A stretch of 64,000 bases of DNA, taken from contig NZ_LAJG01000048.1 of assembly GCF_000970455.1 (NCBI RefSeq), positions 124,001-188,000 of the forward strand, given 5' to 3'. Positions within the stretch are counted from its first letter, which is position 1. Every line of letters begins with the position of its first letter. A program made the translations under genes and the position numbers. The notes below the pieces were generated by a model, which saw only the letters and a list, made by a program, of their open reading frames with translations, ran no database searches and was not told the DNA's origin. Of the stretch, positions 854 to 26,659 are shown one piece after another. Origin of the DNA: Devosia soli (GTDB taxonomy: Bacteria; Pseudomonadota; Alphaproteobacteria; Rhizobiales; Devosiaceae).

Positions 854-1591
854 CTATAGGAAGCTCGCCTCGAAAAGCTGCTCTGAATAGGGATGGTGAG
901 TCTCACCCTTTTCGAGTGCGCCCTTGTCGAGTTCGTCGACGAAGGTGCCGTCCTTCATCACCAGCACGCGGTCGCACATGTGGGCGATCACCGAGAGATC
1001 GTGGCTGACGAGGACGTAGGTGAGGTTCCGCTCTTCGCGAAGATCGGAGAGCAGGTTGAGGACTTCGGCCTGCACCGACACGTCGAGCGCCGAAGTCGGC
1101 TCGTCGAGGAGCAGGATTTCGGGCTCGAGCATCAGCGCACGGGCGATAGCAACGCGCTGGCGCTGGCCGCCCGAGAGTTCGTGCGGAAAGCGTTCGGCGA
1201 AGTTGGCAGGAAGGCCGACCTGCTCCAGCGAGGGCGCCACGCGGCTCCAACCATCGCCGGTTTTCATGGCGCGGGCGGGTTCGGCGAGGACGCGCTCGAT
1301 CCGGTGGCGCGGGTGGATGGAGCCATAGGGATCCTGGAACACCATCTGTGCGAGCTTCAGTTGCTCGCGGCTGCGTTCGCGGTCGACGGGTTTTCCGGCG
1401 AGGCGGATGTCGCCTTCCCAGTGACGGTCGAGGCCGGCGAGCGAGCGGAGGACCGTGGACTTGCCGCAGCCTGATTCACCGACGATCCCTAGGGTTTCAC
1501 CCTTGCCGACGACGAAGGAGACGCCCTGGACCACCTGGCGGCGGGCTTCGCCGCTGCCGAAGGAGACGGAAAGATTGCTGACTTCGATCAT
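854..1591 (-). CDS. Dipeptide/oligosaccharide ABC transporter ATPase, DppF-like
   Basis: Cytoplasmic ATP-hydrolysing subunit of a Dpp/Opp-type importer. Visible motifs are Walker A GESGCGKST, signature LSGGQRQRVAIARAL, Walker B ILLLDEPTSALD and switch histidine LVSHDL. At 245 aa it is shorter than typical DppF (about 320 aa) and lacks the C-terminal oligopeptide-transporter extension. Its ATG overlaps the stop of the DppD-like gene in an ATGA arrangement, so the two ATPases are probably translated together. It is the last gene of a five-gene minus-strand operon (binding protein, two permeases, two ATPases). The neighbours KdgD, UxuA-like and GH1 suggest a carbohydrate rather than a peptide substrate; this is inference. 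Confidence 0.93.
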   Translation of the reverse strand: MIEVSNLSVSFGSGEARRQVVQGVSFVVGKGETLGIVGESGCGKSTVLRSLAGLDRHWEGDIRLAGKPVDRERSREQLKLAQMVFQDPYGSIHPRHRIERVLAEPARAMKTGDGWSRVAPSLEQVGLPANFAERFPHELSGGQRQRVAIARALMLEPEILLLDEPTSALDVSVQAEVLNLLSDLREERNLTYVLVSHDLSVIAHMCDRVLVMKDGTFVDELDKGALEKGETHHPYSEQLFEASFL

Positions 1592-10413: not shown

Positions 10414-10773
10414 CACCGCCAATGATGCGCAATGGCAAACACCGACGCTTGCGGATGCGTTGGGAGCGGATGCTCACGAGGGAAAGGCAGCTTTGAGCAT
10501 ATCATGCAGATGTAGACAGAAATGGAATGGAGTCGAGAGATGCCGATTCAGCAATGCGGCCCATCTCGGACGTTAGACTGGCTTCAGCGAATTCCTCAAA
10601 GCGGACATTCCCATCACGCCGGGCGACGACCTAATCGGGGTGGAAGAACGAACCCGCTGCCGCGGGAGGGTGCGCGCGGTTGGATAACGGCGAAGGACCG
10701 GTCGTCACGGTTTGATTGAGGATCGCCTGGTTTGGGCGTTCCCTTTTGGCTCCTTCAACCCAGGAGCCCGACG
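10414..10773. other. Intergenic flank of the IS91-like element
   Basis: About 360 bases without a convincing gene. Short open frames here have neither ribosome-binding sites nor family-like sequence. It should contain the left end of the IS91-like element, but IS91 elements lack terminal inverted repeats and I cannot fix the boundary. CAGGAG at 10761-10766 is the ribosome-binding site of the integrase gene. Confidence 0.5.
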
Positions 10774-19347: not shown

Positions 19348-20790
19348 TTATAAGGCCCGTGCGACGGATTTCTCAACGGTGGCTGTTTTTTCCGCGCGGG
19401 TCAGTACGTCGCCAACCATGATAAGCACCGGGCCATTTGGCGGTATGTTTTCCCCCATTTTGGCGGCCATGTGCTTGAGAGACGTATGAATGACAGTCTC
19501 GTTTGCTCGGCTGATGTCGCTGGCAATGGCCACGCCGGTCTGCGGTGGCATGCCGTGGGTGATCAGCGCTTTGGCAATGGCGGCGCCGTTGCGCCCCGCC
19601 ATATAATAAACATGGGTGGTCGACGGATCGCTAAGTGCTCGCCAGTCGAGATTATCCGGCAGACCACCGTCACGGGAATGGCCAGTAACGAAGCGGACGG
19701 ATTGGGCGCATTCGCGATGGGTAAGCGAGATGTTGAGGCCCGCCGCTAGCGCCATGGCCGCACTGATGCCGGGGACTACATGGACGGGAATATTCTCCGC
19801 CTCGAGCGCAGCGATCTCCTCTCCTGCGCGGCCGAAGATCATCGGATCGCCAGACTTGAGGCGGACGACATGGTGGCCTTGTTTGGCCAAGGAGATCATC
19901 ATGGCATTGATGTCTTCTTGCTTGCAGCTTGGTCGGCCGCTGCGTTTGCCGACGAGAATGCGCTTGGCTTCGCGACGAGCGAGCTCAAGGACATCGTCGG
20001 AGACGAGATCGTCGAAGAGGATGATGTCGGCGGATTGGAGGGCACGCACGGCCTTGATGGTGAGATATTCGGCGTCGCCCGGGCCGGCGCCGACGAGGGT
20101 CACCTTGCCGGCTTGTGCTGTCTTGGCGGTGGCGAGCCAGTTGGAAATAAGGCTCTCGTCGGGGGCGCGGAGGAAGGCGGCCTCCGAAAGGTTTTCCCAC
20201 AAGGCGCGGCGTTGCGGACCGTGATCGAGGAGGGCGGTGACCTGGTCGCGCACCGTTTTGGCGATATTGGCCCAGCCGGCGAGAGCGGGCGGCAGCAACA
20301 TTTCGATGCGTCGCCGGACGGCCTGGCCGAGAATGGGGGCGGCGCCGGCGGTGGAAATGCCGACGACGAGGGGGGATCGATTGACGATGGCGCCGAACTG
20401 GAAGCTGCAGAAGTCGGGCTTGTCGATGACATTGACGGGGACGCCCATGGATTTGGCATGGGTGGCGAAGTCGGCGGCTTCGAGGTCGTCGCAATCGCCC
20501 ACGGCTATAGCGAGATCGGTCCAGGGGGCCGTGCGCCAATCGACGTGGTGGAGGTGGACGCGGGCGGACTTGGCAAGCGCCAGCGTCTCGGTGCTGCAAT
20601 CGGCTTCCGGGGCATAGACGAGCACTTCGGCGCCGGTGGCGGCGAGGAGTTCGGCTTTCCAGGCCGCGGCGTCGGAGCCGCCGGCGACAAGCACGCGCTT
20701 GTCGGCAAGGATATAGAAGACCGGCAGCGTGGCGAGGTCGGCCATGCGCGGAGCTTGAGGAGTAGGACGCGTCTGGGGCACGATATGCAT
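19348..20790 (-). CDS. cysG: Siroheme synthase (CysG)
   Basis: 480-aa fusion that turns uroporphyrinogen III into siroheme, the cofactor of the nitrite reductase encoded upstream. The N-terminal precorrin-2 dehydrogenase/ferrochelatase part has a Rossmann motif VLVAGGSDAAAWKAELL (about residue 35) and ends in the dimerisation and Sirohm central regions. The C-terminal SAM uroporphyrinogen methyltransferase begins at VTLVGAGPGDAEYLTIKAV (about residue 230), with VVRLKSGDPMIFGRAGEE and VVPGISAAMALAA. ATG 20790 is preceded by AGGAGA; longer in-frame starts are unsupported. It is the last gene of nirB-nirD-FNT-cysG, 22 nt behind the channel gene. Confidence 0.93.
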   Translation of the reverse strand: MHIVPQTRPTPQAPRMADLATLPVFYILADKRVLVAGGSDAAAWKAELLAATGAEVLVYAPEADCSTETLALAKSARVHLHHVDWRTAPWTDLAIAVGDCDDLEAADFATHAKSMGVPVNVIDKPDFCSFQFGAIVNRSPLVVGISTAGAAPILGQAVRRRIEMLLPPALAGWANIAKTVRDQVTALLDHGPQRRALWENLSEAAFLRAPDESLISNWLATAKTAQAGKVTLVGAGPGDAEYLTIKAVRALQSADIILFDDLVSDDVLELARREAKRILVGKRSGRPSCKQEDINAMMISLAKQGHHVVRLKSGDPMIFGRAGEEIAALEAENIPVHVVPGISAAMALAAGLNISLTHRECAQSVRFVTGHSRDGGLPDNLDWRALSDPSTTHVYYMAGRNGAAIAKALITHGMPPQTGVAIASDISRANETVIHTSLKHMAAKMGENIPPNGPVLIMVGDVLTRAEKTATVEKSVARAL

Positions 20791-20812
20791 CTGCCGGTCT
20801 CCTTTCTTGCGC

Positions 20813-21667
20813 TTATTCGGCGGCGACGGGGATGATCTTTTCGCTGCGATCACCGGCGAAGGGTTGGCGCCGGGGCGCCGTGCGTGAGTGGGTGGCGTAA
20901 AGCGTGAGGCCGACAAAGCTGAGGCCGCCCACGAGATTGCCGATGACAGTGGGGATTTCGTTCCAGACCAGGTAATCCATGATCGAGAACTGGCCGCCGA
21001 GCATGATGCCCGAGGGGAAGAGGAACATGTTCACGATGGAATGCTCAAAGCCCATATAGAAGAAGAGCATGATGGGCATCCACATGCCGATGACCTTGCC
21101 GGAGACCGAGGTCGACATCATCGCGGCAACGACGCCGGTGGAGACCATCCAGTTGCAAAGGACGCCGCGGATGAAGAGCGTCAGCATGCCGGCGGCGCCG
21201 TGGGCGGCGTAGCCCATGGTTCGGCCTTCCCCGATATGGCCGATCTTTTCGCCGACCGCGTCGGGCGCCTGGCTGAAGCCGAAGGTGACGATGACCGCCA
21301 TCATCAGGGCGACAAGCATGGCGCCGGCGAAATTGCCGGTGAAAACGAGGCCCCAATTGCGCAGGACGCCGCCAAGGGTGACGCCGCGACGACGATCGAT
21401 AAGGGCGAGCGGGGCGAGGGTGAAGACGCCCGTAAGGAGGTCAAAACCCATGAGGTAGAGAAGGATGAAGCCGACCGGAAAGAGCACGGCGCCGAGAAGC
21501 GGCTGGCCTGTTTGCACGGTAATGGTGATGGCGAAGGCAGCGGCGAGCGCCAGGATGGCGCCGGCCATGAAGGAGCGGATCAGCGTGTCGCGGGTGGACA
21601 TGAAGACCTTCGCCTCGCCGGCATCGATCATTTTGGTGACGAAGTCCTTGGGGGCTACGTAGTCCAT
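20813..21667 (-). CDS. Formate/nitrite transporter family channel (FocA/NirC-like)
   Basis: 284-aa inner-membrane protein with the six-helix FNT fold: LIRSFMAGAILALAAAFAITI as first helix, a second around GAVLFPVGFILLYLMG, NWGLVFTGNFAGAMLVAL, the conserved FIRGVLCNWMVSTGV segment bearing the half-helix Asn, and MPIMLFFYMGFEHSIVNMF with the pore-associated His and Asn. Position in the nirBD operon argues for nitrite import or export (NirC role) rather than formate. ATG 21667 is chosen because the extended frame upstream is Pro/Ser-rich and not family-like. It follows nirD by 40 nt. Confidence 0.9.
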   Translation of the reverse strand: MDYVAPKDFVTKMIDAGEAKVFMSTRDTLIRSFMAGAILALAAAFAITITVQTGQPLLGAVLFPVGFILLYLMGFDLLTGVFTLAPLALIDRRRGVTLGGVLRNWGLVFTGNFAGAMLVALMMAVIVTFGFSQAPDAVGEKIGHIGEGRTMGYAAHGAAGMLTLFIRGVLCNWMVSTGVVAAMMSTSVSGKVIGMWMPIMLFFYMGFEHSIVNMFLFPSGIMLGGQFSIMDYLVWNEIPTVIGNLVGGLSFVGLTLYATHSRTAPRRQPFAGDRSEKIIPVAAE

Positions 21668-21707
21668 TGGGAGTCTCCTGGGGTCTGGTCGTGGGGATGA
21701 AGGGGGG

Positions 21708-22058
21708 TCAGGCCGCAGGGGCGGCGGAAAGAATACTGGCGTCGATGAAGAGGCGGCCGCCGTCACTGCGCATGGGATAGGTGCGGACGGCGCCCTTGTC
21801 GGCGCCCTGGGCTTCGCCTGTTTCAAGGGAGAAGACCCAGTTGTGGAGGGGGCAGGTGACCTGCGCCCCGTGGACAATGCCCTGGCTCAGGGGGCCGCCC
21901 TTGTGCGGGCACTTGTCGTCGATGGCGAAAACTTCGTCGGTGGCGGTGCGGAAAACGGCGATCTTGCCGAAGGCAGTGATGATGCAGCGGGCGCCGCGGC
22001 GGGGGACATCGGCGAGGGCGCCGATTTCGACCCAAGTAATGGGGCTCATGTCGGTCAT
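21708..22058 (-). CDS. nirD: Nitrite reductase [NAD(P)H] small subunit
   Basis: 116-aa Rieske-fold subunit of assimilatory siroheme nitrite reductase. The Rieske-type ligand positions appear as DKCPHKGGPLSQG and CPLHNWVFSLETGEA, so a [2Fe-2S] centre is likely retained. The ATG at 22058 (MTDMSPITWVEIG) lies 5 nt after the nirB stop; the longer upstream open frame lies antiparallel in codon sense to nirB and is discarded. It works with NirB to reduce nitrite to ammonium in the cytoplasm. Confidence 0.93.
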   Translation of the reverse strand: MTDMSPITWVEIGALADVPRRGARCIITAFGKIAVFRTATDEVFAIDDKCPHKGGPLSQGIVHGAQVTCPLHNWVFSLETGEAQGADKGAVRTYPMRSDGGRLFIDASILSAAPAA

Positions 22059-22063
22059 CGCGA

Positions 22064-24508
22064 TCACTCCGCCGCCTGCAGCATCGACAACTCGGCCATG
22101 GCGGCGAATTCGTGCGCGTCCTTGCCGTTGACGCGCTCCTCCCAGGGGTCGACCTGGGCGAATTGCTGCGAATAAACGAAGCGTTCGAAGAGCTGTTGGC
22201 GCCTGGCCAGATCCTCCACGACGGCGGCCTTGATCGACGGGATGCCGACGCGCTTCATCCACTTGTAGATGCGCTCGAGATAGCGGCCCTGCTCGCGATA
22301 GAGCTGGGTAAGGGCGGCGATGATCTCGATGGCCTCGTTTTCGGTCTTGGCGTGGCAGAGGACTTCCGTGCCTCGGATATCGAGGCCGGCGGCACCGCCG
22401 AAATGGATCTCGTAGCCGCTCTCGACGCAGATGACGCCGATATCCTTGCAGGTGGCTTCGGCGCAGTTGCGCGGGCAGCCCGAGACGGCGAGCTTGAGCT
22501 TTGCCGGGGTCCATGAGCCCCACATGAACTTTTCGATCCGGATGCCGAGGCCGGTCGAATCCTGGGTGCCGAAGCGGCACCAGTCGGAACCGACGCAGGT
22601 TTTGACAGTGCGGAGACCTTTGGCATAGGCGGCGCCAGACACCATGCCGGCAGCATTGAGATCGGCCCAGACGGCTGGCAGGTCTTCCTTCTTGACGCCC
22701 AGGAGGTCGATGCGCTGCCCGCCGGTCACCTTGATAGTGGGTACGTCGAATTTTTCGGCGACGTCGGCGATGGCGCGCAACTCTTTGACATTGGTGATGC
22801 CGCCGAACATGCGCGGCACGACCGAATAGGTGCCGTCCTTCTGGATATTGGCGTGGACGCGCTCGTTGATGAAGCGCGACTGGCCATCGTCCTCGTATTC
22901 TCCGGGCCAGTTAGCGACGAGATAATAGTTGAGGGCTGGCCGACATTTGGCGCAGCCACAGGAGGTCTTCCAGCCCAGCTCCTGCATGACGGCAGGGATG
23001 GACTTCAATTCTTGCGCGATAATGAGGCGACGCACTTCGTCGTGGCCGAGCTCAGTGCAATTGCACATTGGCTGGATGGCAGCGGGATTGTAGGCGTCGC
23101 CCAGCGTCGCCATCAGCAGCTTTTCGACAAGGCCTGTGCAGGAGCCACAGGAGGCGGAGGCCTTGGTATGAGCACGGACATCATCGAGCGAGGTGAGACC
23201 CTGGGCTGAGATGGCGTCAGTGATCTTGCCTTTGCAGACGCCGTTGCAGCCGCAGATTTCGGCGTCGGCGGGGAGGGCGGCGACGGCGGCCAGCGGATCG
23301 GCAACGGCGCCGCCTCCATAGGATTGGCCGTAGATCAGCGTGTCGCGCATCTGCGAGATGTCGGTTCCGCGCTTGATGAGATCGAAGAACCAGGCGCCAT
23401 CGCCCGTCTCGCCGTAGAGGACCGTACCGATTACCTTGTTGCCGGCGAGGACGACGCGCTTGTAAATCCCGGAGGCGGCATTGCGCAGGACGATCTCCTC
23501 GCGGCCCTCGCCCTCAGCGAAATCGCCGGCGGAATAGAGATTGACGCCGGTAACCTTTAGATGGGTAGCCGTCTTGGGTGCAACGAAGGCTGCAGCCTCT
23601 CCGACAAGTGTCTTAGCGGCCACCTTGGCCATGTCGTAGAGCGGCGCTACGAGCCCATAGACGGCGCCCTCGTGTTCGACGCATTCGCCAAGGGCGAGAA
23701 TATTGGGATTGGAGGTACGCATGGCGCTGTCGACAACCACGCCGCGCTGCACCTCGATCCCCGCATCGGTGGCGAGGCGGGTCTCGGGGCGAATGCCGGC
23801 CGCCATGACGACGAGGTCGGCTTCGTAGATCGTGCCGTCTTCGAGCAGCACCGCTTCCACACGGTCGGTGCCAAGGATGGCCTTGGTCTGTGCCCGGCAA
23901 TGGATTTTTATGCCGCGGCGGCCAAGTTCGCGTTCAAGGAGATAGCCGGCGGCGGGGTCGAGCTGCCGGTCCATCAGGTGCCCGGCGAGATGCAGCACCA
24001 CGACATGCATGCCGCGGCCACGCAGAGCAGCGGCGGCTTCGAGGCCAAGGAGACCACCGCCGATGACGACGGCGCGGCTGCCGGGACAATCGGCGGCCGA
24101 AAGCATGGCGTTGACGTCATCGAGGTCGCGGAAGGCGCGCACGCCAGGAAGGTCGTGGCCGGCGATGGGCAGGATGAAGGGGGCGGAGCCGGTGGCGATG
24201 ACCAGCTTGTCGTATGGCGTCTCGACGCCATTGGCGAAGACTGTGCGGGCGGTGCGGTCGATACGGGTCACGGCGTGGCCGAAGCGCGTGTCGACCCCAT
24301 TGGCCGCGTACCAGTCGGCGTCGTGGGTGACGATGTCCTCATAGGCCTTTTCGCCTGCAAGGACCGCCGAGAGCATGATGCGGTTGTAGTTGCCGCGCGG
24401 CTCGGAGCCGAAGAGGGTGACCTCGTAATTATGTGATGTCTCAAAAAGGTGCTCGAGCATGCGCCCGGAGGCCATACCAGCACCGATGATGACGAGCTTC
24501 TCGGTCAT
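22064..24508 (-). CDS. nirB: Nitrite reductase [NAD(P)H] large subunit
   Basis: 814-aa cytoplasmic siroheme enzyme. In order: FAD/NAD(P)H domain starting at LVIIGAGMASGRMLE with the second Rossmann motif VVIGGGLLGLEAAAAL; two BFD-like [2Fe-2S] regions (EICGCNGVCKGKI through SCGSCTGLV, then MCNCTELGHDEV through SCGCAKCRPALNYY); nitrite/sulfite reductase ferredoxin-like half; and the siroheme-[4Fe-4S] module with VGSDWCRFGTQDSTGL and SGCPRNCAEATCKDIG carrying the cluster cysteines. Length matches the family. It is the first gene of nirB-nirD-FNT-cysG and is preceded by a sigma-54-like promoter and a two-hairpin antitermination leader, so expression should need nitrogen limitation plus nitrate or nitrite. 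Confidence 0.96.
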   Translation of the reverse strand: MTEKLVIIGAGMASGRMLEHLFETSHNYEVTLFGSEPRGNYNRIMLSAVLAGEKAYEDIVTHDADWYAANGVDTRFGHAVTRIDRTARTVFANGVETPYDKLVIATGSAPFILPIAGHDLPGVRAFRDLDDVNAMLSAADCPGSRAVVIGGGLLGLEAAAALRGRGMHVVVLHLAGHLMDRQLDPAAGYLLERELGRRGIKIHCRAQTKAILGTDRVEAVLLEDGTIYEADLVVMAAGIRPETRLATDAGIEVQRGVVVDSAMRTSNPNILALGECVEHEGAVYGLVAPLYDMAKVAAKTLVGEAAAFVAPKTATHLKVTGVNLYSAGDFAEGEGREEIVLRNAASGIYKRVVLAGNKVIGTVLYGETGDGAWFFDLIKRGTDISQMRDTLIYGQSYGGGAVADPLAAVAALPADAEICGCNGVCKGKITDAISAQGLTSLDDVRAHTKASASCGSCTGLVEKLLMATLGDAYNPAAIQPMCNCTELGHDEVRRLIIAQELKSIPAVMQELGWKTSCGCAKCRPALNYYLVANWPGEYEDDGQSRFINERVHANIQKDGTYSVVPRMFGGITNVKELRAIADVAEKFDVPTIKVTGGQRIDLLGVKKEDLPAVWADLNAAGMVSGAAYAKGLRTVKTCVGSDWCRFGTQDSTGLGIRIEKFMWGSWTPAKLKLAVSGCPRNCAEATCKDIGVICVESGYEIHFGGAAGLDIRGTEVLCHAKTENEAIEIIAALTQLYREQGRYLERIYKWMKRVGIPSIKAAVVEDLARRQQLFERFVYSQQFAQVDPWEERVNGKDAHEFAAMAELSMLQAAE

Positions 24509-24552: not shown

Positions 24553-24626
24553 CCAAAACGAAAACGCCGCCAACCGTCGCGACCTGTCTCCCATGGGGAG
24601 AGCCGGTCTTGATGGTTGGCGGCGTT
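24553..24626 (-). terminator. Intrinsic terminator in the nirB leader (attenuator)
   Basis: Read on the minus strand, AACGCCGCCAACC (24626-24614 complemented) pairs perfectly over 13 bp with GGTTGGCGGCGTT (24575-24563). The enclosed 38 bases form a further stem (GACC/GGTC and CTCCC-type pairs around 24587-24601). TTTTCGTTTT follows directly. This is the strongest terminator signal in the window and lies only about 55 nt before the nirB ATG, so it should stop transcription by default. Confidence 0.88.
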
Positions 24627-24658
24627 GCCAGATGTTGTGGCGCCCGTCATTGGACGCC
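24617..24658 (-). promoter_or_regulatory. Two-hairpin ANTAR (NasT) target RNA in the nirB leader
   Basis: On the minus strand hairpin P1 is GGCGTCC, loop AATGAC, GGGCGCC (24658-24639; seven pairs, one G-U). Hairpin P2 is TGGC, loop AACGCC, GCCA (24630-24617). Both loops are six bases with A at position 1 and G at position 4, the rule established for ANTAR-protein RNA targets. They are 8 nt apart. P2 consumes most of the 5' arm of the terminator, so the two structures exclude one another. The NasT gene with its ANTAR domain is at 26072-26659. Confidence 0.8.
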
Positions 24659-24694
24659 GGAATTTTGCTGCGCCGAAGCGCTCGCAGACCTTAT

Positions 24695-24710
24695 TGCATG
24701 AACCGTGCCA
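24695..24710 (-). promoter_or_regulatory. Sigma-54-type promoter of the nirB operon
   Basis: Minus strand TGGCACG (24710-24704), four bases, then ATGCA (24699-24695). The GG and GC dinucleotides are exactly 10 bases apart, as RpoN promoters require; only one base differs from the TTGCA -12 consensus. The inferred start, near 24685, lies about 27 nt before hairpin P1. I found no clear NtrC dyad upstream. Confidence 0.7.
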
Positions 24711-24819: not shown

Positions 24820-26055
24820 TTATTCTGTGCGCAGATCGCGCGACTGGCCTCTAATATAATCATCGAGATAATCGAGGTCGAATTGCGACCCGTCGAAGAA
24901 CCCGTCAGGCCCGAGAGTCAGGTGGCCGCCGACGGCGCCGACTTCCGTCGGTTCGACGAGTGCGCCTTCGATCTTGCTGCTGGCGCCGGGGACGGGCATG
25001 CCCATGCCGGAGAGGGCGGCGCGATAAAGATCGGGGCGATAACTTGCGGCCGCCTTTCGCGCATTTTCCGGCGTATGGGTGACCTGACCCCAGCGCACCA
25101 TCTGCGAATAGAACCACAGTGCGTGGCTGACCCACGGGAAATTGGCGGCGCGGGAATAGGGCACGAAAAAGTCGGGGATCGGCTCTTCGACGTCCGGAGC
25201 GAATTGCAGCCGGCCGGTGAGGGCGCGCAGGATGAGATTGGCGTCGATGCCGAGGCGATCTTCGCGCGCCAGCATCGCGGCGATGGCGGCGTGATTGGTC
25301 GGGTCTTCACACCAGCGCGCGGCGCGGGTGGCGGCGCGGAGGAGGGCGGCCAACTGCTCGGGAAAACGCTCGGCCCATTGAAGCCGCGTGCCAAGCACCT
25401 TGTCCGGACTCATCTGCCAGATATGGCCCTTGGTGGTGACGATGCGCCCGACACCGCGGGCGACGGCGACCGAGCCAAAGGGCTCGCCGACACAAAAGCC
25501 GTCGGTGCGTTTGGCGGCGAGGGCATCGGCCTGGAGCGGGGGTGGCACGATGACGATATCGACGTCATTGTCGGGGTCCATCCCGGAGGCCGCCAGCCAA
25601 TAGCGCAGCGCGTAATTGTGGGCGCTTTCGGGATGAACGACGGCAAGGCGCAGATGCGGCTCGCCGCCGCGGTTTCGTTCCTCGACCACTTTTCGCAGGG
25701 CGGCGCCGACCGGACCCGGCGCACCGTCCTCCGGCGCGCCTGCCTCGGCCATCTTGGCCCAGACGGCATTGGACATGGTCATCGCCGCGCCCCCGAGGCC
25801 AAGCGCCATGGGCGCAATCACCGCCGCATCGAGGGGGGTGAGGCCAAGATTGGCGCTGAGCGGCATGGGGCCGAGCATATGCGCGACATCGAGATGGCCG
25901 ATGGCGACACGATCGCGAATATTGGCCCAAGAGGTCTCGCGCACGAGATTGAGGTGGAGGCCCTCGCTTTCGGCAAAGCCGAATTCTTCGGTGGCAAGCA
26001 GCACCACGCTATCGAGCAGCGGCACATAGCCGGCGGTGATCTGCGTCAGGCCCAT
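24820..26055 (-). CDS. nasS: Nitrate/nitrite sensor NasS (NrtA/CmpA-like, cytoplasmic)
   Basis: 411-aa protein of the nitrate/bicarbonate ABC-binding-protein superfamily without signal peptide or lipobox: it begins MGLTQITAGYVPLLDSVVLLATEEFGF. Matching features are GHLDVAHMLGPMPL, VHPESAHNYALRYWLAASGM and TDGFCVGEPFGSVAVA. In NasS-NasT systems such a soluble sensor holds NasT inactive until it binds nitrate or nitrite. The absence of export signal, of any ABC permease or ATPase nearby, and the position 16 nt after nasT favour NasS over a transporter component. The start at 26055 is chosen because the in-frame extension overlaps nasT and is not conserved-looking. Confidence 0.88.
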   Translation of the reverse strand: MGLTQITAGYVPLLDSVVLLATEEFGFAESEGLHLNLVRETSWANIRDRVAIGHLDVAHMLGPMPLSANLGLTPLDAAVIAPMALGLGGAAMTMSNAVWAKMAEAGAPEDGAPGPVGAALRKVVEERNRGGEPHLRLAVVHPESAHNYALRYWLAASGMDPDNDVDIVIVPPPLQADALAAKRTDGFCVGEPFGSVAVARGVGRIVTTKGHIWQMSPDKVLGTRLQWAERFPEQLAALLRAATRAARWCEDPTNHAAIAAMLAREDRLGIDANLILRALTGRLQFAPDVEEPIPDFFVPYSRAANFPWVSHALWFYSQMVRWGQVTHTPENARKAAASYRPDLYRAALSGMGMPVPGASSKIEGALVEPTEVGAVGGHLTLGPDGFFDGSQFDLDYLDDYIRGQSRDLRTE

Positions 26056-26071
26056 GACCAAATCTTCTCCT

Positions 26072-26659
26072 TCATGGTCCCAGCAACTCCGCGGCGGTGA
26101 CGACCGCTTGGGCAATCTCGGCGATCTTGCGATTCTGATTCATCGCAGTGGTGCGCAGCAGCGCATAGGCCGCGTCTTCGGAAAGCCCGCGCGTCGACAT
26201 CAGGATGCCCTTGGCCTTATCGATCACCTTGCGACCCTGCAATTCGGAACGCGCAGCCTCGAGTTCGCCCTGCAGGCGTGAAAAGGCGCGGAAGCGGACG
26301 ATGGCCATGTCGAGGATTGGCTTGATCCGGTCTTTTCGCAAGCCATCGACCACATAGGCGGAAACACCGGCATCAACGGCCGCTTCGATCTCGGCCGGAT
26401 CGGCCTTGTCGACAAACATGGCAACGGGACGCCTAAGGCTCCGCGACAGGGCGAAGAAATGCTCAAGCACGTCGCGATTTGGGTTTTCGAGATCGATAAT
26501 GACCACATCGGGCGAGATGGCGCCGATCTTTTGTGCGATATCCTCAATATCGACAATGACCTTCACAGTCTGATGCCCAGCCTCACGCAACCCTGCTTCG
26601 ATAATCGAAGCGCGGATGGGATTGTCATCGATGACGAGGATAGACAACGGATCGGCCAT
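26072..26659 (-). CDS. nasT: ANTAR-domain antiterminator NasT
   Basis: 195-aa response-regulator-like protein. The receiver-like domain spans residues 1-120 (ILVIDDNPIRASIIE, DVVIIDLENPNRD with the putative phospho-acceptor Asp, MFVDKADP). The C-terminal ANTAR RNA-binding domain at about 130-190 contains QGRKVIDKAKGILMSTRGLSEDAAYALLR and ends with NRKIAEIAQAVV. The family binds two-hairpin leader RNAs to prevent termination. The target is seen upstream of nirB. It is the first gene of nasT-nasS, so the sensor and the antiterminator are made together. Confidence 0.93.
   Translation of the reverse strand: MADPLSILVIDDNPIRASIIEAGLREAGHQTVKVIVDIEDIAQKIGAISPDVVIIDLENPNRDVLEHFFALSRSLRRPVAMFVDKADPAEIEAAVDAGVSAYVVDGLRKDRIKPILDMAIVRFRAFSRLQGELEAARSELQGRKVIDKAKGILMSTRGLSEDAAYALLRTTAMNQNRKIAEIAQAVVTAAELLGP

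Follow-up and report, generated by a model that had tools for sequence, protein, structure and literature searches.

A putative NasT-dependent antitermination leader upstream of the nirBD-nirC-cysG operon in a Devosia genome with no detected nitrate reductase

The nasTS-nirBD locus and its leader

What controls a nitrite-assimilation operon that lies directly behind the genes of a nitrate/nitrite sensing system but has no nitrate reductase gene among its members? In the Devosia genome examined here (G000; a draft of 4.14 Mb, 99.95% complete), this question is raised by a minus-strand locus with the gene order nasT-nasS-leader-nirBD-nirC-cysG, which lies in the window, that is, the whole 64-kb stretch of DNA that was analyzed. 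All features of this locus described below are on the minus strand. The nasT gene (26072-26659) encodes a protein of 195 aa with a response-regulator-like receiver and an ANTAR RNA-binding domain (Pfam Response_reg, 1e-9; ANTAR, 3e-21), and nasS (24820-26055; 411 aa when the ATG at 26055 is taken as the start) encodes a cytoplasmic nitrate/nitrite sensor (Pfam NMT1_2, 7e-69) homologous to NrtA 2g29 and CmpC. Among named relatives, Devosia riboflavina and Devosia sp. Root685 have the most similar NasS (90% identity), and it is by NasS similarity that the genome is assigned to Devosia. A preliminary description of this DNA had placed NasT and NasS directly upstream of the leader, and the positions of the two genes (nasT at 26659-26072, nasS at 26055-24820) agree with it. 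On the other side of the leader, nirB (22064-24508) encodes the large subunit of an assimilatory NADH-nitrite reductase (814 aa; TIGR02374, 862 bits against a cut-off of 578) and nirD (21708-22070) its Rieske-type small subunit (Pfam Rieske_2). They are followed by a nirC-like formate/nitrite transporter gene (20813-21877, start putative; Pfam Form_Nir_trans, 7e-65) and by cysG (19348-20916, start putative; Pfam TP_methylase, NAD_binding_7 and CysG_dimeriser), which encodes the synthase of sirohaem, the cofactor of NirB.

Read in the direction of transcription, the leader first carries a putative sigma-54 type -24/-12 promoter TGGCACGGTTCATGCA (24695-24710), which matches the TGGCAC-N5-TTGC type of element (GG-N10-GC) and places the predicted +1 at about 24684; rpoN is present in the genome. 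The hairpin P1 (24639-24658), GGCGTCC[AATGAC]GGGCGCC, has a 7-bp stem, a hexaloop with A at position 1 and G at position 4 (A1/G4) and a folding energy of -14.0 kcal/mol. P2 (24617-24630), the predicted antiterminator hairpin, reads TGGC[AACGCC]GCCA and has a 4-bp stem and a second A1/G4 hexaloop, with -5.4 kcal/mol for this stretch. It is followed by an intrinsic terminator (24563-24626) whose arms, 24626-24614 and 24575-24563, form 13 perfect base pairs around a long structured loop, which reaches -43 kcal/mol by itself in computed folding and which is directly followed by the interrupted T-run TTTTCGTTTT (24553-24562). The two A1/G4 hairpins with the loops AATGAC and AACGCC and the 13-bp terminator stem with its T-run had been reported beforehand and are present as reported, apart from the interruption of the T-run. 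The same description had held that all elements of the ANTAR antitermination model are visible here, and everything that this model predicts at the sequence level was indeed found. A further hairpin that it did not mention, P0 (GCGC-UUCG-GCGC, 24670-24681), lies at the 5' end, 3-4 nt past the predicted +1. As a third ANTAR site in the window P0 was rejected, its loop being the tetraloop UUCG.

Mutually exclusive folds and chance controls

P2 and the terminator overlap at 24626-24617, and this overlap comprises 10 of the 13 bases of the terminator 5' arm, in keeping with the earlier statement that P2 uses most of that arm. In computed folding, the full leader reaches -74.5 kcal/mol (z = -5.8), and -61.0 kcal/mol when P2 is enforced; folding with and without P2 constrained had been proposed as a check, and it returns exclusive folds. 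For growing transcripts, the computation predicts that P2 forms first (P > 0.97 until the polymerase has passed about 24573) and is then replaced by the terminator, once the 3' arm of the latter has emerged. The modeled P2 and terminator folds are mutually exclusive, an arrangement that characterizes antitermination switches. Since the P2 fold is 13.5 kcal/mol worse than the terminator fold and its stem has only 4 bp, control must be kinetic or need strong binding by NasT.

We also checked how often such an arrangement occurs by chance. The window was scanned for pairs of A1/G4 hexaloop hairpins (stems of at least 4 bp, spacing up to 40 nt) in which the second hairpin overlaps a terminator of at least 8 bp. 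Besides the leader, one weak site was detected (about 13200, minus strand; stems of 4, 4 and 9 bp), and 60 dinucleotide shuffles of the window gave 0.28 sites each; this second site, with its 9-bp terminator, is at the level expected by chance. None of the 60 shuffles contained a site with a P1 of at least 6 bp and a terminator of at least 12 bp. By themselves, P2 (z = -0.3) is unexceptional and the sigma-54 string is at chance level (0.64 expected per 64-kb window); therefore, both rest on their position and on conservation in relatives. Judged from the window by itself, the stability of P0 does not reach significance (p 0.1). When Rfam was applied to the window, tRNA was the only family found at the gathering score. 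Animal miRNA models (MIR7510 and others), which matched the terminator at permissive scores well below their cut-offs, were dismissed as hits to generic long hairpins.

Conservation of the leader in relatives

Some 80 named loci, together with 30 loci belonging to the same family, yielded a set of 93 distinct leaders downstream of nasS; all counts over this set include related species. The preliminary description had made its reading depend on the persistence of the A1/G4 pattern in close relatives, and the pattern is kept: A1 and G4 are each present in the P1 loop of 93/93 leaders, and in the P2 loop A1 occurs in 90/93 and G4 in 93/93. The other loop positions are free, and position 3 of the P1 loop takes all four bases. 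The selection of the 93 leaders favoured A1/G4, and P1 was therefore examined again with hairpins chosen by stem only, giving A1 in 84/88 and G4 in 86/88. Moreover, P1 covaries, with 6 pairs changing on both sides compared to 1.5 in shuffles, and 92.6% of its cells are paired, compared to 33-57% when slid. The terminator overlaps P2 in 92/93 leaders. The GG-N10-GC promoter, also part of the preliminary description, lies at 24710-24695 in the window, and 74/93 leaders have a similar site (TGGC[AG]..TGC) no more than 110 nt before P1, usually 49-54 nt away from it, with 0.024 expected per leader.

Some departures from the common form were observed. The only A1 exceptions among the 93 leaders are L055, L068 and L091, in which the P2 loop begins with G (GAAGCT, GATGCC). 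Seven further loci lie outside the set, the automatic picking of P1 having failed for them; by eye, L030, L093 and L105 carry the element, L089 has P2 without a standard P1, and L022 and L095 (from the same genome) as well as L027 are without the element right after nasS. At the P0 position, 92/93 leaders have a hairpin of variable sequence with a folding energy of about -4 kcal/mol or lower, which perhaps protects the 5' end; unlike that of P0 in the window by itself, its stability is significant over the set (mean z -1.9). In some Mesorhizobium-type leaders (L067, L070, L072, L081, L085, L100, L101 and L113), P0 is itself an A1/G4 hexaloop hairpin, which would make three consecutive ANTAR-type hairpins. 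In the Aquamicrobium MAG locus L067, an Rfam ROSE RNA thermometer (945-1038, plus strand; 69 bits) was also detected upstream of the nas region.

Co-occurrence of NasT and the leader

NasT is the sole ANTAR protein found in the genome, and a covariance model of the leader (R1) has a single match there (E 1e-8). With promoter, dual hexaloop and terminator in 158 nt, and with one ANTAR protein and one target, this unusually compact leader would be handy for the study of NasT. Among 136 genomes of the family, which are related and hence not independent events, a NasT-type ANTAR protein (>60 bits) was detected in 69 and an R1 leader in 69; both were present in 68 and neither in 66. Leader and regulator are thus found together in 68 of the 70 genomes having either. 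In genome G047, a further leader precedes a NarK-NirB-like-NasA cluster, and in G016 further leaders precede an nrtA-side locus and a NirB-like-NasA cluster. As each of these two genomes has one ANTAR protein and the extra leaders stand at unlinked nitrate genes, one regulator probably serves several leaders in both.

Unusual combinations were also noticed. Genome G099, which contains L022 and L095, has nasTS with no hairpins after nasS and no R1 match in the genome, leaving a NasT without a visible target. At locus L184 (G081, contig C13, about 10626-10668), a short NirB-like ORF is preceded by a leader; the genome, of 2 Mb, yielded no ANTAR protein, and this is either an assembly gap or a relic. 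Loci L182 and L183 (G022 and G046) have an ANTAR protein and a leader directly before nirB (shown for G022). No NasS match was obtained in these two genomes at E 1e-30, and the sensor may be different or missing there.

Relation to known antitermination systems and to the narK RNA

The A1/G4 loop rule comes from work on EutV and NasR (PMC3369931). Their eutP and nasF antiterminators likewise have two A1/G4 hairpins, with P2 overlapping an intrinsic terminator (PMC3369931), whereas the Devosia regulator is NasT with a separate sensor, NasS, and not EutVW or NasR. In Paracoccus, the nasA leader is bound by NasT, and the NasS-NasT complex comes apart in response to nitrate or nitrite (PMC3795266); mutations of the leader hairpins have been tested in P. 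denitrificans (PMC5424462). This system is likewise alphaproteobacterial, with nasTS directly upstream and a hairpin-containing leader of about 200 bp to which NasT binds as RNA (PMC3795266, PMC5424462), but it controls nasABGHC, including the nitrate reductase, while the Devosia operon is nirBD-nirC-cysG. For Pseudomonas nirBD, a passage in PMC12830290 that cites Romeo 2012 and Nie 2024 reports a sigma-54/NtrC-driven leader, nalA, antiterminated by NasT; this precedent went unmentioned in the preliminary description. As portrayed in that passage, the nalA leader of P. aeruginosa and P. putida resembles what we infer for Devosia in its sigma-54/NtrC promoter, its NasT antitermination upstream of nirBD and its NasS partner. 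It differs in being gammaproteobacterial, in preceding nirBD-PA1779-cobA instead of nirBD-nirC-cysG, and the likeness is one of description, not of alignment. On that account, the Pseudomonas nirBD arrangement is already described and the Devosia leader is another case of a known mechanism, unusual mainly for the apparent absence of nitrate reductase and for an altered NasS binding pocket.

The Rfam narK RNA (RF03032) aligns to 24674-24616 of the window with 16.7 bits (E 0.16), below its gathering score of 43.2, and the Devosia leader is not a member of this family as modeled. The RF03032 consensus has a TGGCAC..TTGCT-like site, a hairpin with the loop AACGGC and an unmodeled GAC[AAAGAC]GUC hairpin. 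Of the RF03032 loci detected across 398 genomes of the phylum, 25 were inspected (L154-L178). Homologues of NasT or NasS are encoded in the surrounding 1.5 kb or so at 15 of them, and most of the inspected loci contain a second A1/G4 hexaloop outside the Rfam model, followed by a terminator. Judging from these sequence features, what Rfam models as narK RNA seems to be the form that the NasT/ANTAR leader takes in other proteobacteria, a link that, if confirmed, would give the family a function; no mention of RF03032 was found in the literature searched.

Nitrate reductase and the NasS binding pocket

The earlier observation that the operon has no nitrate reductase extends to the whole genome searched: an assimilatory nitrate reductase was not found in the draft genome, nor were NarK and NrtA, and these absence calls depend on the draft assembly. 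Four molybdopterin oxidoreductases are encoded, namely NuoG (named from its own sequence), two FdhF/YdeP-type proteins and one 705-aa protein resembling formate dehydrogenase/DMSO reductase, none of which reaches a nitrate-reductase cut-off. As the NCBIfam cut-offs are strict and true Devosia NasA also falls below them, direct comparison is the stronger test: identity to a true NasA fragment is 32% for the 705-aa protein, compared to 67-70% for real NasA proteins. NasA is absent in 10 of the 12 genomes with the compact nasTS-nirBD-cysG arrangement, and in the NasS tree the genomes with this arrangement group as a single clade, placed among relatives that carry NasA.

The nitrate ligands of NrtA are Trp102, Gln155, His196, Gly240 and Lys269 (PMC13204499). 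Devosia NasS keeps Trp43, His146, Gly190 and Lys219, and the position of Gln155 is occupied by Ala90 (codon at 25786-25788). Ala is also present in the eight nearest species, whereas 91/91 comparison NasS proteins have Asn, and the change from Asn to Ala maps to one branch of the NasS tree, at the base of this nine-species clade. The idea that Ala90 tracks the loss of nitrate reductase exactly was rejected: the Ala genomes G016 and G047 keep NasA at other loci, and three NasA-less genomes keep Asn. A nitrite-selective sensor is therefore a hypothesis and not a finding.

Proposed mechanism and alternative explanations

We consider it very probable that the leader is a NasT (ANTAR) antitermination leader of the nitrite-assimilation operon; the use of sigma-54/NtrC, the binding of NasT, the readthrough and the ligand response are inferred from homologous systems. 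Transcription would start at about 24684 by sigma-54 RNA polymerase, presumably activated by NtrC-P under nitrogen shortage, and the transcript would fold P0, P1 and P2. Without inducer, NasT would be held by NasS, the much stronger 13-bp terminator would displace P2, and transcription would stop before nirB. Binding of nitrate or nitrite to NasS would release NasT to bind the A1/G4 loops of P1 and P2, keeping P2 closed and the terminator blocked, so that nirB-nirD-nirC-cysG would be transcribed. In this genome, the switch would serve the import and reduction of nitrite only. Weighing against this reading are the interrupted T-run, the short and comparatively weak P2, and a sigma-54 string that by itself is at chance level in 64 kb.

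The strength of the terminator by itself (-43 kcal/mol) and its location just after nasS would also suit a mere intrinsic terminator of the nasTS transcript, with nirB expressed from an unseen promoter downstream and no antitermination. This reading is highly unlikely, for a plain terminator needs neither P1 and P2 nor their A1/G4 loops, which are conserved; in 74/93 relatives the sigma-54-like site precedes the hairpins instead of following them, and genomes with a single NasT have additional leaders in front of unlinked nitrate genes. It is extremely unlikely that the leader is a riboswitch, or senses nitrite, sirohaem or nitrogen status in some other way without a protein, and stands near nasTS by chance: the hairpins P1 and P2 are small, have hexaloops and lack a conserved core resembling a ligand pocket, they match the ANTAR rule exactly, and they co-occur with NasT in 68/70 genomes. 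The additional 5' hairpin P0 fits such a sensor, as does the classification of the related narK RNA as a cis-regulatory family in Rfam, but RF03032 loci also have nasTS nearby. Another explanation is a degenerate relic: after the loss of nitrate reductase, the switch would have ceased to respond, leaving nirB constitutively silent or constitutively expressed, as might be suspected from the missing NasA, NarK and NrtA and from the changed residue of the NasS pocket. We judge it very unlikely, given that all elements are intact and conserved in the nine species sharing the Ala pocket, that the switch is kept in 10 of the 12 genomes with this operon type despite the absence of NasA, and that nirBD, nirC and cysG are intact.

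What NasS senses where no nitrate reductase is present, and whether the change from Asn to Ala tunes it to nitrite, become testable questions in this setting. It is possible, although on balance doubtful, that in this Devosia lineage a NasS-NasT switch once used for nitrate now serves nitrite, with nitrate reductase and transporters gone, the sole leader placed on nirBD-nirC-cysG, and the Asn-to-Ala NasS acting as a natural nitrite-selective (or nitrate-blind) sensor. The NasS of Paracoccus responds to both nitrate and nitrite (PMC3795266), so a nitrite-only operon could be served even by the sensor in its unaltered form. As to the origin of the locus, the region 26659-21708 has a mosaic appearance: the nearest counterparts of NasT and NasS are in the D. 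riboflavina group (90% for NasS), whereas those of the leader, NirB and NirD are in a different Devosia group (NirB, 90-92% vs 82-86%). By these comparisons, the leader seems to have moved together with nirB.
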